Origin: Proteiniborus sp. DW1
GTDB taxonomy: Bacteria; Bacillota; Clostridia; Tissierellales; Proteiniboraceae
DNA length: 60,921 nucleotides
Direction of reading: 5' to 3'
Assembly: GCF_900095305.1 (NCBI RefSeq)
Contig: NZ_FMDO01000052.1
Span: 1 to 60,921, forward strand
The position numbers and the translations under genes were made by a program. The notes below the pieces were generated by a model, which saw only the letters and a list, made by a program, of their open reading frames with translations, was not told the DNA's origin and searched no databases. Shown here in pieces: positions 2,823 through 11,996 of this stretch (positions within the stretch are counted from its first letter, which is position 1; the number at the start of each line of letters is the position of its first letter).

Positions 2823-3587
2823 CTACAGATATTTAAATTTCTCCCTTACTTCTTTTATCTTCCCACAAGTCATTTTTCCCTCTGGGCATGGACCATTAAC
2901 ACAACCTGGACCTGAGTATTTAAATAATGATGGGGCAACTGCTTTTACTTGTCTTAGCATTTCTATAGCTAGCTGTCTTATTTCCCATTGTGCTCTATTG
3001 CAGCATCTTTTATTAAAAAAGTTAAATAATGCTCTTGCATTCATTGTAAATACAATCTTGGTTTCACAGGCATTAGGAAATACATACCTAGCATCTTCGA
3101 TGGCCATTTTCTCTGCATCCTTTCTAGCCTTTACTTCACTATAACCTTCTTGAATCAGCTTTTCATAATGCTTAGTAAATAATAAGTCTGTCAACTCATT
3201 ATAATATTTTTGGTCTTGCTCCATAGCTTCTATGAATTTTGCTTTTGCTTCGGGTATGGCTTCTATTGATGGTGGAATTATATACTCAAATTGCTGCAGT
3301 TTTACATATCTCTGAGATTGTTGAGAATACGATGCTCCAATTCTATGTCTCACTAATTGATGAGTCAAAACCCTACTTATGCCCTCAACTCCAAAAGTAA
3401 AAGAAACATGTTCAATTGGTGATTCATGACCTAACTCCATAAGCATTTCGATAAAATCCTGTGTTTTTCTATCATCTAGTTTTTCTTCAATATCTTCTAC
3501 TCCTACTGCTGAATAACATAGCTTTGCAGCAGCAGCTATTAGTTTTTCTGCATCCTGTGTATATCTTAGCAGACTTACCCTAAGCAT
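2823..3587 (-). CDS. thyX: Flavin-dependent thymidylate synthase ThyX
   Basis: ThyX makes dTMP from dUMP with methylenetetrahydrofolate and FAD/NADPH, replacing ThyA. The ThyX motif [15 protein letters not shown] lies near residue 80, with [12 protein letters not shown] before it and [21 protein letters not shown] after it. The spacing between RHR and the conserved Ser is eight residues, the longer of the two spacings accepted for the family (RHR-X7-8-S). The C-terminus carries four cysteines (GCVNGPC, MTCGK). The ATG at 3585-3587, eight bases after AGGGGGA, is preferred to a GTG two codons upstream, giving 254 aa. It follows mrnC within 20 bases, in the same operon as cysE-cysS. Confidence 0.96.
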
Positions 3588-3602
3588 TTTCACTCCCCCT
3601 TA

Positions 3603-4034
3603 TTATTTACATTCATTCTCGTTTATTATCATACTAAAAATCTCCAAAATTCTCTCGTTTCTTCCATTAAGATACAAAAAGCCTATAAGAGTTTCAAAGC
3701 CAGTTGCATATCTATAGTCTAGCAAGTTAGCATTCTTAGGTGCAGAACCTGATTTTGCATTTCTACCTCTTTTAACCATTTGCCATTCTTCTTCTGTAAG
3801 CTTATCCTCTAGAAAATGAGTTACATCTGCCTGTGCTTTAGCTTTTACATATTCAATAGCTTCTTTATGAAGCTCATTGACAGACATATTCTTAGTTCCT
3901 ATTAAGAATGTTCTTATAAAAAGCTCATATACTGCGTCTCCTATGTAAGCAAGCTGTAAGGGAGATAGCATTTTAATGTCTACTCCCCAGCCTTTACATA
4001 TATCTTTAAGTCCATTAAATAAATCTTTGCCCAT
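3603..4034 (-). CDS. mrnC: Mini-ribonuclease III (MrnC)
   Basis: MrnC is a short RNase III lacking the double-stranded-RNA-binding domain; in Bacillus it matures the ends of 23S rRNA. The 143-aa protein contains the RNase III signature LSPLQLAYIGDAVYELFIR (residues 24-42), with the catalytic Asp in GDAVYE, and a second acidic segment ATGFETLIGFLYL. The RGRNAKSGSAPKNA segment is characteristic of the family. It starts four bases past the cysS stop, and cysS-mrnC linkage is conserved in Firmicutes. Confidence 0.95.
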   Translation of the reverse strand: MGKDLFNGLKDICKGWGVDIKMLSPLQLAYIGDAVYELFIRTFLIGTKNMSVNELHKEAIEYVKAKAQADVTHFLEDKLTEEEWQMVKRGRNAKSGSAPKNANLLDYRYATGFETLIGFLYLNGRNERILEIFSMIINENECK

Positions 4035-6265: not shown

Positions 6266-6530
6266 TAAAAATAACCGCCTCAATACTATTTGTAAAGAGA
6301 CGGTATAATCCCGCGGTTCCACTCTAATTGAGCATATATGCCCCACCTTGTAAAAGCAATAACGGCGCTTCCCCGGCTAACCCTACTAATATTTCAGGCA
6401 ACAGTTCAAAGGTGCACTTCAATCTAAAATTGACATAAGGCTTCTCTCAGCTTATAAAAGCCCCTCTCTGTATGTGTATTAGATTTACTTTACCTTATCA
6501 TAACCTTTATCTCTAATTCAATGTTATGAT
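6266..6530 (-). promoter_or_regulatory. T-box riboswitch, cysteine specifier, upstream of cysE-cysS
   Basis: Read on the minus strand, the leader has stem I elements (AGAGAGGGGC, CTGAGAGAAG) and a specifier loop GAAGTGCACC whose TGC triplet (6414-6416) is a cysteine codon. The T-box AGAGTGGAACCGCGGG lies at 6310-6325. Directly after it comes a terminator hairpin ACCGTCTC/GAGGCGGT with the run TATTTTT (about 6268-6304). Binding of uncharged tRNA-Cys should stabilise the antiterminator. A likely -10 TATAAT is at 6534-6539; the matching -35 is weak. Confidence 0.93.
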
Positions 6531-6609: not shown

Positions 6610-8091
6610 TTATTTAATGTGGTTTTTTACATATTCTATGCGGCTAAGTATATTTTGTTTCCCTAAAATTAGAATAATCTTATCTAAGTCTGGTCCATGA
6701 AGCTGGCCTGTTAAAGCGGACCTTATTGGCATAAATAGATTTTTGCCCTTCACTCCAGTGCTTTTCTGTATTTTTTTCATTATTGTAGTAGAAAATTCTT
6801 CATCTATTTCGTCTATTTGCGATAGTTCTTCTTTAAATGCTTGTAGCAAAGAAGGAACTTGTTCTCCTTTAAGCATTTCAATAACTTCTTCATTTTCTGG
6901 TTTTATTTCATTGTCAAAATAGAACTGAGCTTTTTCTACTATCTCTCCCACATAAGATATTCTTTCTTGAAGTGTTGATACTATAAGCTTTATCCAATCA
7001 TATCTGCTATCCACATCCTCTTCACTAATATAGCCTGCATTTAAAAGATGTGGTATAGCTAGTTTTGTGATTTCATCTATATCTGCATTTCTTATATAAT
7101 GTCCATTTACCCAATCTAGCTTATCTTTATCAAAAATTCCACCTGTATTTGAAACTCTCTCAAATGAAAATTGTTCAATTAACTCATCCATTGTAAAGAA
7201 CTCTTGATTACTCTCTGGACTCCATCCTACTAATGCTAGATAGTTTATAATCCCTTCTGGCAAATATCCTTTAGCTCTAAAGTCTTCTACTGAAACATCT
7301 CCGTGTCTTTTGCTAAGTTTTTTCTTTTCTTTATTCAATACTGTTGGTAAGTGTACAAATTCTGGTGTTTCCCATCCAAAGGCTTCAAATAAATATGCTT
7401 GCTTTGGCGCTGATGGAAGCCATTCTTCTCCCCTCACTATATGAGTTATTTTCATTAGATGGTCATCTACTACTACTGCAAAGTGATAAGTAGGAAATCC
7501 ATCAGATTTAATAAGGACTTGATCATCTAAATCCTTGGTGTTTATTGTTATCTTTCCTCTTATTAGGTCATTAAATACTATATCTCTGTTCTTTGGAAAC
7601 TTAAGCCTAATTACGTATTCTTCTCCTGCTTCTATTCTTTTCTTTGCTTCTTTGATGCTTATATCTCTACAATGTCCATCATATCCTAGCATTAGCCCCT
7701 TTTCCTTCTGTTCTTCTCTAATCCTTTCAAGTCTTTCCTTGTCGCAGAAGCAATAGTAAGCATGTCCTTTTTCTAATAACTCATTTATGTATTTCTTGTA
7801 TATGTCAAGTCTTTCTGATTGAATATATGGCCCATATTCACCTTTTTGAACTATTTTACCGTCTTCTATAAAGACTCCCTCATCATGTACTACGCCAGCC
7901 CATAAAAGTGAATTTATTAAATTCTCAATGGCATCGTCTACATATCTTGATTGGTCTGTGTCTTCTATTCTAAGTATATATTTTCCACCCTTATTCTTTG
8001 CAAACAAATAATCATATAGTGCCGTTCTTAATCCTCCTATATGTAAATACCCTGTAGGACTAGGTGCATACCTAACTCTCACTTGAGACAT
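6610..8091 (-). CDS. gltX: Glutamyl-tRNA synthetase
   Basis: The 493-aa class I enzyme charges tRNA-Glu (and in many Firmicutes also tRNA-Gln, for later amidation). The HIGH motif is in [17 protein letters not shown] near residues 10-26 and the KMSKS variant is KKLSKRHG near residue 255. Zinc-type cysteines are visible in [10 protein letters not shown] and GHCRDI. The C-terminal anticodon-binding domain includes [15 protein letters not shown]. The gene stands alone under its own promoter (8132-8160) and has no T-box. Confidence 0.97.
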
Positions 8092-8131: not shown

Positions 8132-8160
8132 ATTATATAATACTAGCTTTTTAGTATCAA
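8132..8160 (-). promoter_or_regulatory. Sigma-A-type promoter of gltX
   Basis: On the minus strand TTGATA (8155-8160) and a perfect TATAAT (8132-8137) are separated by 17 bases, about 40 bases upstream of the gltX start codon. Confidence 0.75.
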
Positions 8161-8189: not shown

Positions 8190-8309
8190 TTAAAACCTCC
8201 TAATAAGGTAGAACACAAGTAATAATATAATAATATGTACCAACCACCATCCTACTGATAAAAACGAAAACCTGCTTCTATAATGTAACCTTCTCCTATT
8301 TCTCTCCAT
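8190..8309 (-). CDS. Small single-span membrane protein, 39 aa, unrecognised
   Basis: This frame was found by translating the 500-base gap between gltX and the ROK kinase gene. The ATG at 8307-8309 is preceded at six bases by GGAGG, within TTAGGAGGAG, one of the best ribosome-binding sites in the window. The peptide starts MERNRRRLHYRSRF, very basic. It has a hydrophobic segment from about residue 19 to 36 (VGWWLVHIIILLLVFYLI) and ends RRF. This predicts one transmembrane helix with basic flanks. I do not recognise a family. It precedes the gltX promoter in the same direction. Confidence 0.5.
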   Translation of the reverse strand: MERNRRRLHYRSRFSFLSVGWWLVHIIILLLVFYLIRRF

Positions 8310-8391
8310 TTTTCTCCTCCTAATAACCTAATAGATAGTATTAGGATTTACAAAACAGATAATCTATATTCTCAGGTATACCAAAACAGTT

Positions 8392-8591: not shown

Positions 8592-9539
8592 TTAACTATA
8601 TTTACATAACATTGCCGCCCCTATTATGCCTGCATCATTGCCATGTTTAGCTATGACAACTTTACTATGTGGCATGTCTTTAAATAAAATCTTATCATGG
8701 ATTTTATTATTTATAAGCTCTAATAAATAGTCACCAGCCTTAGATACTCCACCACCTAGAGCTATTACTTCTGGATCTAGAAGATTTATTAAATTTGTAA
8801 TGCCTATTATTAAATAATCCACTAATCTATTAACAGAGTCTAATGCTAGTTTATCTCCAGATTTAGCACAATCAAATATTAACTTGGCATTAAGTTTATC
8901 TAGGTCATCTCCAATATAATTTCTTATATTAGTATTCTCCTTTGTTTCCTCCATTAATTTTCTAGTATATTTTATCAATGCAGTTGCTGAGGTAAAGGTT
9001 TCAAAACAGCCATTCTTCCCACAATTACAATTATAAAAGTTCTCACCTATTACCATATGACCTATTTCTGAACTAAGATTATTGGTTCCACTATAAAGCT
9101 TTCCGTTAATAATAAATCCTCCACCTACTCCTGTACCAAGGGTTATTAAAATAGAGTTTTGAGTATCCTTTAGAGCTCCGTTTTCAAGCTCTGCTAAAGC
9201 AGCTACTGAAGCATCGTTATCTATATAAACTGGTTTATTGAGTTCCTTCTCTAGAGTCTTGCCCAATGGTACATCCTGCCACCCTAAATTTACGCAATTC
9301 ATAACATTTCCTGTTTTGTTATCAGCTAAGCCAGGTACTCCTACACCTATTCCCATAACTTTTTCACAGTCTGGAGCTTGGTTAGAAACATCCTTAATCA
9401 ACTCAATTATATCTTGTATCACAGTATTCCATCCTCTAAAAGGTAAAGTTTGACAGCTTTTCTGGAATAAAATATTCCCATCATTAGAGACTACTCCAGC
9501 AGTAACATTTGTTCCCCCTATATCTACCCCAATATACAT
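8592..9539 (-). CDS. ROK-family sugar kinase (probable glucokinase)
   Basis: ROK kinases phosphorylate sugars such as glucose or N-acetylhexosamines with ATP. The N-terminus MYIGVDIGGTNVTAGVV is the ATP-binding phosphate-1 motif. VYIDNDASVAALAE and ILITLGTGVGGGFIINGKL contain the catalytic Asp and phosphate-2 region. EIGHMVI and the zinc motif CNCGKNGCFETF are ROK hallmarks. I choose the ATG at 9537-9539, eight bases after AAGGGGG, over a GTG two codons upstream; this gives 315 aa. It stands between proS and the small membrane-protein gene, and substrate cannot be fixed from sequence; glucokinase is the commonest annotation. Confidence 0.88.
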   Translation of the reverse strand: MYIGVDIGGTNVTAGVVSNDGNILFQKSCQTLPFRGWNTVIQDIIELIKDVSNQAPDCEKVMGIGVGVPGLADNKTGNVMNCVNLGWQDVPLGKTLEKELNKPVYIDNDASVAALAELENGALKDTQNSILITLGTGVGGGFIINGKLYSGTNNLSSEIGHMVIGENFYNCNCGKNGCFETFTSATALIKYTRKLMEETKENTNIRNYIGDDLDKLNAKLIFDCAKSGDKLALDSVNRLVDYLIIGITNLINLLDPEVIALGGGVSKAGDYLLELINNKIHDKILFKDMPHSKVVIAKHGNDAGIIGAAMLCKYS

Positions 9540-9678
9540 AACCACATCCCCCTTATATAATTTTATTTAAGAATTATTTTATCATAAGAATATGTTGATT
9601 AATAGATATCTATAACATGAGTCTTCTCAACCTCGCAGCTTAATTTTTTTATTCTCTAACTCTTATAAATTTAATCAT

Positions 9679-9710
9679 AAAAGCTACCGCCTAATACGGT
9701 AGCTTTTATT
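9679..9710 (-). terminator. Intrinsic terminator after proS
   Basis: AAAAGCTACCG and CGGTAGCTTTTA form an 11-bp stem with a 7-base loop directly after the proS stop codon. A-rich and T-rich flanks would let it work in both directions. Confidence 0.85.
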
Positions 9711-11435
9711 CTATAATTCTAGTCCTTGTTGTTTAAATTCTGCTCTTACCCTGTCCATTATCTCACTTGTGTTTACTTCAACTTTTTCTCCTTCTCTCCT
9801 TAATGAGAATTCTACTATTTCTTCGTTTGCTCTTTTACCAACTGTAATTCTAATAGGTATACCAATTAAATCTGCATCTTTAAACTTAACTCCTGCTCTT
9901 TCGTTTCTATCGTCAATTAATACTTCTAGTCCAGCCTTTGAAAGCTCATCATACAGTCTTTCACCTAGAACGACTTGCTCTTCACTCTTAACATTTACTA
10001 CAGTAATTATTACATGATATGGGGCTACTGATAATGGCCATATGATTCCATTTTCATCATGACATTGTTCTATTACAGCAGCAGCTGTTCTGGTTACTCC
10101 TACTCCGTGTGAACCCATAAATATTTTTTGTTCTTTACCATTCTCATCTAAGAAGGTAGCATTTAGTGCGTTACTGTATTTTAGCCCTAGTTGGAATATG
10201 TTACCTACCTCTATTCCTCTATCCATCTTAAGTGGCTCTCCACACTTAGGACATTTATCTCCTTCTTGAACTAGCAGTATATCTTCTACTACCTCTCCTT
10301 CAAAATCTCTACCGTAGTTTATATTCTTAATATGATAATCTGTTTCATTAGCACCTACTATGAAATTGGTCATCTTTGTAACTCTTGAATCAACTATGAT
10401 TTTAATGTCCTTTTTCAAATTCATAGGTCCAGCAAAACCTACCTCTGCTCCTGTAACTTCCTTTACTGTTTCTGCATCTGCCATCATTAGCTCGTGCTCT
10501 GGAATACCTAGTACTTTAACTAGTTTGATCTCATTAAGTTCTCTGTTCCCTGGGATAACTACTGCTACCACTTCGTCTTTTGCCTTGTATAATAATGTTT
10601 TTGCAAAGTTTTCATGAGATGTATTAAAGAACTTTGACACTTCTTCTATTGTTTTAGCATTTGGTGTATGAACCCTTTCCAATTGAAGCTTTTCTTCAGT
10701 AGTGGACTTAACTTCATATAGACAATTTGCTTTTTCATCTGTGGCAGCATAGTCACAACTATCACAATAAGCTATTGCACTTTCACCATACTCTGACATT
10801 GCCATAAACTCATGAGAGTCACTTCCTCCCATGGCACCAGAGTCACCTTCAACTACCTTGAATTTTAATCCACATCTTGTAAAGATTTTCTCATAAGCCT
10901 TCCACATATCATAGTAGGATTTTCTCATACCTTCTTCATCTATATCAAAAGTATATGCATCCTTCATTATGAATTCTCTTGCTCTCATAAGACCAAATCT
11001 TGGTCTTTTTTCATCTCTATATTTAGTCTGTATTTGATAAAGGCTAAGTGGTAGCTGCTTGTAAGACTTTATTTCATGTCTTATGAGATCTGTAAATATT
11101 TCTTCATGTGTAGGTCCTAGACAAAATTCTCTTTGATTTCTATCATATAATCTAAACATCTCAGGACCAAAATCGTCCCATCTACCAGACTCTTTCCATA
11201 GTTCTGCAGGTTGTATAGCAGACATTAAAACTTCTTGAGAATCTATGGCATCCATTTCTTCTCTTACAATTTGTTCAATCTTTTTTAATACTCTAATTCC
11301 AAGTGGTAAGTAAGAATATACTCCTGATACTAGCTTTCTAATCATTCCTGCTCTTAGTAAAAGCTGATGACTAGGAAGCTCTGCCTCTGAAGGAACTTCT
11401 CTTAATGTTGGCATATAAAGTTTTGACATTTTCAT
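9711..11435 (-). CDS. proS: Prolyl-tRNA synthetase (bacterial type, with editing insert)
   Basis: This class II synthetase charges tRNA-Pro. Motif 2/3 regions are visible in [27 protein letters not shown] and [17 protein letters not shown]. Between them, residues about 225-400 form the YbaK-like editing domain, including [20 protein letters not shown]. The anticodon-binding domain is at the C-terminus ([20 protein letters not shown]). The ATG at 11433-11435, spaced 10 bases from GGAG, is preferred to the upstream GTG, giving 574 aa. A proline-specific T-box lies about 310 bases upstream, with two family B repeats in between. Confidence 0.97.
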
Positions 11436-11518
11436 ATATATCACTCTCCATTATTAAATTAAATTCAATGACTATTTGACGTACATAAACGGTCAGAAAA
11501 TTTTTTGCAGTTACTTCT

Positions 11519-11741: not shown

Positions 11742-11996
11742 AAAAAAACCTTCATCCCAAAAAAGGGACGAAGGTTATATCCGCGGTACCACCCTAATAG
11801 ATTATAAAATATATAATCCACTCGAAATAAATAACGGTAAAAAACCGTCTAGACTTTTATTTTCCCGTCTAGAAGCTCTGGGATGGGTTCAATATTCATT
11901 GGGTTAGAAATCTCTCAGCCTAGGACTTCCTCTCTGTATACCTTAAATATCTACTATTTCCCTTCAACGCTTTTAATATTTATTTATAAGATTAAA
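11742..11996 (-). promoter_or_regulatory. T-box riboswitch, proline specifier, upstream of proS
   Basis: On the minus strand the specifier loop is TGAACCCATCC, with CCC (11885-11887), a proline codon. Stem I elements AGAGAGGAAG and CTGAGAGA precede it. The T-box AGGGTGGTACCGCGGA is at 11780-11795. It is followed by the terminator CCTTCGTCCC/GGGATGAAGG with seven Ts (11742-11774). Uncharged tRNA-Pro is expected to allow read-through into proS. Confidence 0.95.

Follow-up and report, generated by a model that had tools for sequence, protein, structure and literature searches.

A 39-residue membrane microprotein gene between proS and gltX and its apparent WWxxH relatives

Introduction

Many small bitopic membrane proteins of known function are adaptors that tune transporters and kinases, and small bitopic regulators include CydX, MgrB and AcrZ. 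The peptide analyzed here resembles these regulators in its size and single span, but no scanned member of the WWxxH group to which we relate it matches any Pfam or NCBIfam model above cut-off.

A closer point of comparison is cytochrome b559, with its subunits PsbE and PsbF. Common to these subunits and to the wide family of WWxxH peptides are a one-helix peptide (about 40 aa for PsbF) with a His near one end, a Trp preceding the His (at H-4 in PsbF and H-3 in PsbE, counting from the His), an Ile or Val at H+4, a Phe at H+8 and a Gly at H+11. The wide family differs in presenting WW where PsbF has RWL and PsbE has RYW, and the Gly at H+11 of b559 is absent from the group described here. PsbE and PsbF are encoded by a two-subunit gene pair, like the WWxxH pairs of the Nitrospirota and unlike the present locus, for which a single match was found in the genome. 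To our knowledge, no photosystem is expected in the Tissierellales. In b559 the haem is bound close to the cytoplasmic side, by one His from each of the two subunits (PMC9214863). According to PMC6824673, two single helices with one His each can bind haem in designed dimers based on glycophorin A, which are engineered, unlike the natural family members treated here, and a title cited in PMC5730185 refers to PsbF homodimers (beta2) in vitro, in a reconstituted system. Among the open-access papers listed in our searches, none dealt with relatives of b559 outside photosynthesis, and proteins of the present kind outside photosynthesis were represented by designed ones alone.

The third described system is that of the DUF1002 proteins (PF06207), among which Bacillus subtilis ypuA serves as a cell-envelope-stress reporter according to PMC11481878 and PMC9147123. 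The likeness in this case is one of location: DUF1002 proteins, of about 290 aa, are encoded next to the peptide in 11 of its 16 carriers, and are neighbors rather than relatives of it.

Here we report the analysis of a 39-codon frame that a preliminary description had singled out as a probable short membrane peptide, in a stretch of 60,921 nucleotides, hereafter the window.

Results

Reading of the sequence confirmed the frame at positions 8190 to 8309 of the window and placed it on the minus strand, which the preliminary description had left unstated; the ribosome-binding site, hydrophobic span, WW pair and RRF end that it had listed are all as claimed. The encoded peptide (MERNRRRLHYRSRFSFLSVGWWLVHIIILLLVFYLIRRF) is preceded by a Shine-Dalgarno AGGAGG (8316-8321, minus strand) six bases 5' of the ATG, in the context AGGAGG-AGAAAA-ATG, with GGAGG ending six bases before the start codon; GGAG or a longer match, identified by eye, precedes the start in the other 15 carriers. 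Hydropathy assigns the span to residues 19-36 (codons at 8202-8255, minus strand), the best 18-residue stretch of the peptide with a Kyte-Doolittle mean of 2.54. An AlphaFold model predicts one helix encompassing residues 11-38, with a mean pLDDT of 64 for residues 11-20 and 93 for residues 21-39, and is hence confident from residue 21. The WWxxH motif occupies residues 21-25 (codons at 8235-8249, minus strand). Its two Trp and its His are invariant in the 15 rows of A1, a profile of distinct members from the order of the window, and in the 48 rows of A4, a profile of sequences all from outside that order.

Downstream of the frame lies gltX (6610-8091, minus strand), preceded by a promoter-like site, TTGATA-17-TATAAT, that matches 11 of 12 positions and falls between the peptide stop and gltX (8132-8160, minus strand). 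Upstream are a ROK-family gene (8592-9545, minus strand) and proS (9711-11444, minus strand). A terminator-like hairpin is located directly 3' of proS (9677-9709, minus strand; one found in the stretch against 0.7 expected), so the ROK gene and the microprotein may be transcribed separately from proS. The only Rfam matches in the stretch are two T-box leaders away from the gap (6293-6510 and 11761-11976, both minus strand), which sit upstream of a cysE/cysS pair, named by eye, and of proS. The flanks show no unusual folding (z 0.39, -0.70 and 0.41), and a non-coding reading of the gap was set aside.

A search of 60 related genomes returned matches at E < 1e-3 in 16, the own genome included. 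Both congeners compared carry the frame intact, with 74% and 69% identity and with none of the stop codons or frameshifts that the preliminary description had named as evidence against a gene. The codon-substitution check that it had proposed revealed a concentration of change at third codon positions, with pairwise comparisons of the three genus genomes yielding 9/4/26, 10/3/15 and 4/3/23 changes at the three codon positions, no indel and no stop. Two of the genus pairs show dN/dS values of 0.125 and 0.052, and the third is synonymously saturated. Random redistribution of the observed nucleotide changes matched the low number of amino-acid changes in a stop-free frame in 0 of 4000 trials for each of the three pairs, 3388 to 3838 of the 4000 failing through a new stop.

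Searching 249 genomes of the order with A1 identified 21 with a match at E 0.01 or better, 16 of them at 1e-13 or better. The five weak matches (E 6e-4 to 9e-3), at loci without proS, gltX or DUF1002, were dropped, leaving 16 carriers among the 249 genomes, the own genome included. L048, opposite a 433-aa gene, is without WW; L049 and L050 do have WW, but no His at the expected position, and fall within proteins of 254-262 aa; the L051 frame is 22 residues long. The fifth, L052 (G205:C277:1210-1266, minus strand), from another family of the order, reads RFLSISWWLIH before its hydrophobic pattern is lost, and may be a chance match or a decayed copy. The peptide is encoded downstream of proS in all 16 carriers, at a distance of 614-1161 bases in G009, G025 and G049, and upstream of gltX in 15; in the exception, G049, DUF1002 is followed by the start of another ORF and then by the contig end. 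Named carriers are Sporosalibacterium faouarense, Caloranaerobacter azorensis, Thermohalobacter berrensis and Anaeromonas frigoriresistens, and the taxonomy of two of these, which was looked up, is Tissierellales, phylum Bacillota. As judged from its pattern of change, the 39-residue frame is a translated gene for a tiny, predicted one-helix membrane protein under purifying selection. The proposal of a genuine short membrane peptide with a non-random pattern is thus strongly borne out by the intact congeners, the locus kept in 16 of 249 genomes and the purifying selection.

In 11 of the 16 carriers the gene after the peptide encodes a DUF1002 protein, some 290 aa long, whose N-terminus is signal-like as assessed by eye; the identification is based on one scanned neighbor (PF06207, E 7e-83), with which the remaining neighbors align. 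DUF1002 is present in 153 of the 249 genomes of the order. Among 28 DUF1002 loci that were read, 15 also have proS and gltX, and 10 of these 15 lack the peptide. Conversely, the three genus genomes (G000, the own genome; G001; G002) and G039 (85% complete) keep the peptide and have no DUF1002, and G052 keeps the peptide as well and encodes DUF1002 elsewhere in the genome. All five of these carriers without DUF1002 at the locus present TTGATA-17-TATAAT boxes between the peptide and gltX. No WWxxH frame was found before gltX in the stretch read of nine non-carriers, including three of the genus of G052 in which proS and gltX are 88-394 bases apart. Joint inheritance of DUF1002 and the peptide, as expected of a module, was hence not observed. 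Since the peptide is kept where DUF1002 is absent from the genome or encoded elsewhere, it outlives that neighbor; and since it is also absent from non-carriers that have proS and gltX, it is a unit of its own that has been gained or lost over time.

Outside the order, the A1 search returned a match in one other genome among 390 of the class; this match (L069; FLSNLWGALH, without WW and opposite the end of a 450-aa gene) was left out, though not disproved. A phylum-wide draw of 397 other genomes, the phylum being called Bacillota from the named carriers, yielded 38 short ORFs in 27 genomes. These encompass 40-66 aa from the start that we chose and contain one hydrophobic stretch, the hydropathy of which is low for a span in some of them (lowest 18-residue maximum 1.11); a loosely defined ribosome-binding site precedes 36 of the 38. 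WWxxH and a Phe at H-9 are present in all 38, an Ile at H+4 in 34 and a Leu at H+10 in 35. A Gly at H+11, which A1 does not require, is found in 34 of these 38 ORFs and in 11 of 11 Aquificota and Nitrospirota peptides. Of the 14 carriers tallied (of 16) in the order of the window, none has this Gly and all have a Ser at H-7. The window peptide thus shows the short ORF, the single hydrophobic stretch and the F-L-x-x-x-W-W-x-x-H pattern by which we defined the family, and lacks the Gly 11 residues after the His that is absent throughout its order, on account of which we call it a divergent member. The residues before WW carry a mean net charge of +3.9 in the order of the window versus -0.9 in the 38 phylum ORFs; charge patterns hence differ between groups, and topology may not be uniform across them. 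Several phylum genomes hold two paralogs, in two different settings.

A DNA pattern scan retrieved 16 stretches: eight carriers of the order, five stretches from Aquificota and Nitrospirota, and three (L058, L065 and L067) that were dropped as unlike the family. The look-alikes, all with WWxxH, come from Thermocrinis (Aquificota), Hydrogenobacter, which we take to belong to the Aquificota, and one Nitrospiraceae record (Nitrospirota); three distinct Aquificota cores show 50-57% identity to the first A4 core, which is from the phylum set. Among the 249 order genomes, A4 matches the window ORF at 4.0e-8 and recovers every carrier except G042 (15 of 16), with one further marginal match, a 22-residue frame in G191; this search is specific but not independent, A4 rows having been collected via A1 or a pattern derived from it. 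The same origin, shared by A2, makes A1/A2 and A1/A4 comparisons partly circular. No Pfam or NCBIfam match above cut-off was obtained for the family members scanned: the 15 A1 rows gave only sub-threshold Pfam matches, most commonly to DUF4381 (6 of 15), and PHROGs only weak single-member matches.

No neighbor common to all subfamilies was found. In one subfamily (L136, L137, L138, L144 and L146) the peptide lies between an aminotransferase-like gene and a hydrogenase/heterodisulfide-reductase-like cluster of FAD/NAD and 4Fe-4S proteins, named by eye; both flanks are present in these five loci, and the cluster alone in L140. All four Nitrospirota carriers (of 148 genomes; one of the four supplied query rows) have two WWxxH peptides in tandem (L057, 6932-7579, and L113, 4260-4886, both plus strand; L114 and L115, around the pair); after them comes a hydrophobic protein, about 135 aa long, in which His residues (LHYRIH, H[YF]S) are conserved. 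The tandem and this protein look like a small membrane redox cassette. Overall, the relation of the window peptide to the 40-66 aa ORFs in other classes of the phylum appears well supported, and the Aquificota and Nitrospirota peptides appear to be more loosely related. The peptide therefore looks like a divergent member of a WWxxH family undescribed in the libraries searched. This wider family and its invariant His, which in our assessment are the main points, could not be seen from the window alone.

Comparison with cytochrome b559 was chosen after weak library matches had suggested it. Among distinct peptides from outside the order, 3 of the 18 scanned against Pfam and 4 of the 13 scanned against NCBIfam gave sub-threshold b559 matches, at E 0.02-0.8; the best library match of these distant relatives had an E of 0.023 and 14.2 bits versus a cut-off of 61.15, and no scanned member reached a curated b559 cut-off (PF00283, TIGR01332, TIGR01333). 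Unrelated families match as well or better (CCSMST1, 0.0041; LIC_10740, 0.0042; TIGR03766, 0.028; DUF4381, 0.044). The window peptide itself has no b559 match in Pfam or NCBIfam, and none was obtained in Pfam for its group (15 of 15 A1 rows scanned). HMMER searches of PDB chains with A1, A2 or A4 returned no matches even at E 10, PsbE and PsbF not being recovered; one single-member PDB match was taken as chance.

Profile comparison with hhalign aligned A4 with PsbF and PsbE in the same register, with probabilities of 50 and 70. The scores lie narrowly above the best of 150 column shuffles (18.9 vs 18.0 for PsbF, 21.4 vs 19.9 for PsbE), in a test that favors the real order by also moving the His. 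With His and Trp fixed and all other positions shuffled, 452 and 333 of 50000 shuffles reach the score for PsbF and PsbE, respectively; 130 and 31 of 50000 do so when only H+1 to H+13 are shuffled. In a separate score test, 36 and 22 of 20000 His-fixed shuffles reach the score. Among 6714 membrane windows, two score at or above PsbF and three above PsbE, and the top-scoring one is, by its letters, a family member in G965. The PsbE and PsbF tests are not independent, the two subunits being mutually related. For the group of the window itself, the probabilities are 6 and 24, with 5 of 150 shuffles, which again move the His, scoring as high in each case. The likeness to b559 is hence suggestive for the wide family and weak for the group of the window.

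Matches to ferrochelatase (PF00762) were identified in 13 of the 16 carriers, 11 of them over cut-off, and are partial and weak (best 3e-9); none was obtained in G025, G049 and G052. In the own genome, L103 (G000:C31; 368-1555, plus strand) is a 395-aa frame with a hydrophobic N-terminus that matches PF00762 at E 4e-14. As read from sequence, these ferrochelatase-like matches would count neither for nor against haem supply.

Discussion

The explanation that we favor is that the frame encodes a translated one-helix membrane microprotein, a divergent WWxxH member held between proS and gltX across the order. The basic N-terminus would stay cytoplasmic in the order of the window, the Trp pair would lie at the membrane interface and the His, which is invariant in every collected family member, would be placed one helical turn deep in the bilayer. 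Its invariance, its location within the only span and the Trp beside it suggest a ligand; the helix may work as a dimer, or together with a second helix, with the His as the ligand. Taken as a whole, this explanation of a WWxxH one-helix microprotein, with a self-associating helix and a His ligand, is probably correct, if only just. The leading candidate for what is bound would be haem b, held as in cytochrome b559; for the wide family it is the most likely single ligand, which makes it a tentative choice and in itself a rather unlikely one, and for the group of the window its likelihood is lower still.

The main rival is that the peptide is a cofactor-free membrane adaptor, in which the conserved cytoplasmic half (RFxFLSxxWWxxH) would dock on a larger membrane protein and tune it. 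Within the order the invariant residues (F, L, S, W, W and H) do cluster at one helix end, as a docking site would, and the varying contexts of the subfamilies would allow for a partner encoded elsewhere; but no partner is evident, DUF1002 and ROK are dispensable neighbors, and a plain adaptor would not usually have a His within its span. We regard this as unlikely while giving it serious weight. The same neighbors bear on the suggestion in the preliminary description that the peptide binds a neighboring enzyme, which finds no support as stated: the ROK gene is at the locus in only two of the 16 carriers (G000 and G002), gltX is preceded by a promoter-like site of its own, 3' of the peptide, in each of the three genus members, and DUF1002, the commonest neighbor, is absent from all three. 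Its further suggestion of a role in stress would rest only on the association with DUF1002. That association, with DUF1002 directly after the peptide in 11 of 16 carriers and ypuA as an envelope-stress reporter in B. subtilis (PMC11481878 and PMC9147123), could indicate that the peptide and a YpuA-like protein are envelope-stress partners, forming a single module for the sensing or protection of the cell envelope. Yet DUF1002 is present in 153 of the 249 order genomes versus 16 for the peptide, the peptide is kept without it in G000, G001, G002 and G039, and relatives outside the order are found in other contexts, so that we consider such a module very improbable.

Its size, single span and Trp would also fit a type I toxin of a toxin-antitoxin pair, and an antisense promoter-like site inside the frame (8255-8284, plus strand; 10 of 12) aims at its ribosome-binding site, with boxes at the same place scoring 10 in G002 and 9 in G001 and thus present in all three genus members. 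These boxes, however, overlap conserved codons and may have been retained as a by-product; the stretch contains 12 promoter-like sites versus 8.3 (sd 2.6) expected, no Rfam match falls in the gap, and a stable place between housekeeping genes across many genera, under strong constraint, is unlike mobile toxins. A toxin is in our judgment an even slimmer prospect than the envelope module. Lastly, the position of the frame just upstream of gltX in the window might point to a leader peptide or to conserved regulatory DNA in place of a protein. Against this, gltX has its own promoter-like site after the peptide stop in the genus, a whole gene separates the peptide from gltX in 11 of 16 carriers, the flanks fold unremarkably and the gap has no Rfam match. 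Moreover, it is the amino acids that are conserved, and the third-position pattern together with the existence of distant protein relatives refutes this reading in effect, leaving it a negligible probability.

Within the favored explanation of a self-associating helix with a His ligand, a bolder proposal can be put forward. The WWxxH microproteins would be minimal one-helix b-type cytochromes, with haem shared by two helices that each give one axial His, and they would be non-photosynthetic relatives, and possibly the source, of photosystem II b559. The Nitrospirota would keep the two-gene form beside a His-bearing multi-span protein, and the Tissierellales form would be a derived single-copy version. 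This proposal is speculative, and we think it quite unlikely to hold in full.

A one-helix family that is present in several classes of one phylum, and apparently in two more phyla, and of which no scanned member fits a Pfam or NCBIfam model would mark a clear annotation gap, and the single invariant residue, the His, offers a direct way to test what the family does. Should the peptides prove to bind haem, they would count among the smallest cytochromes in nature, and the ancestry of cytochrome b559 could then be put to the test.
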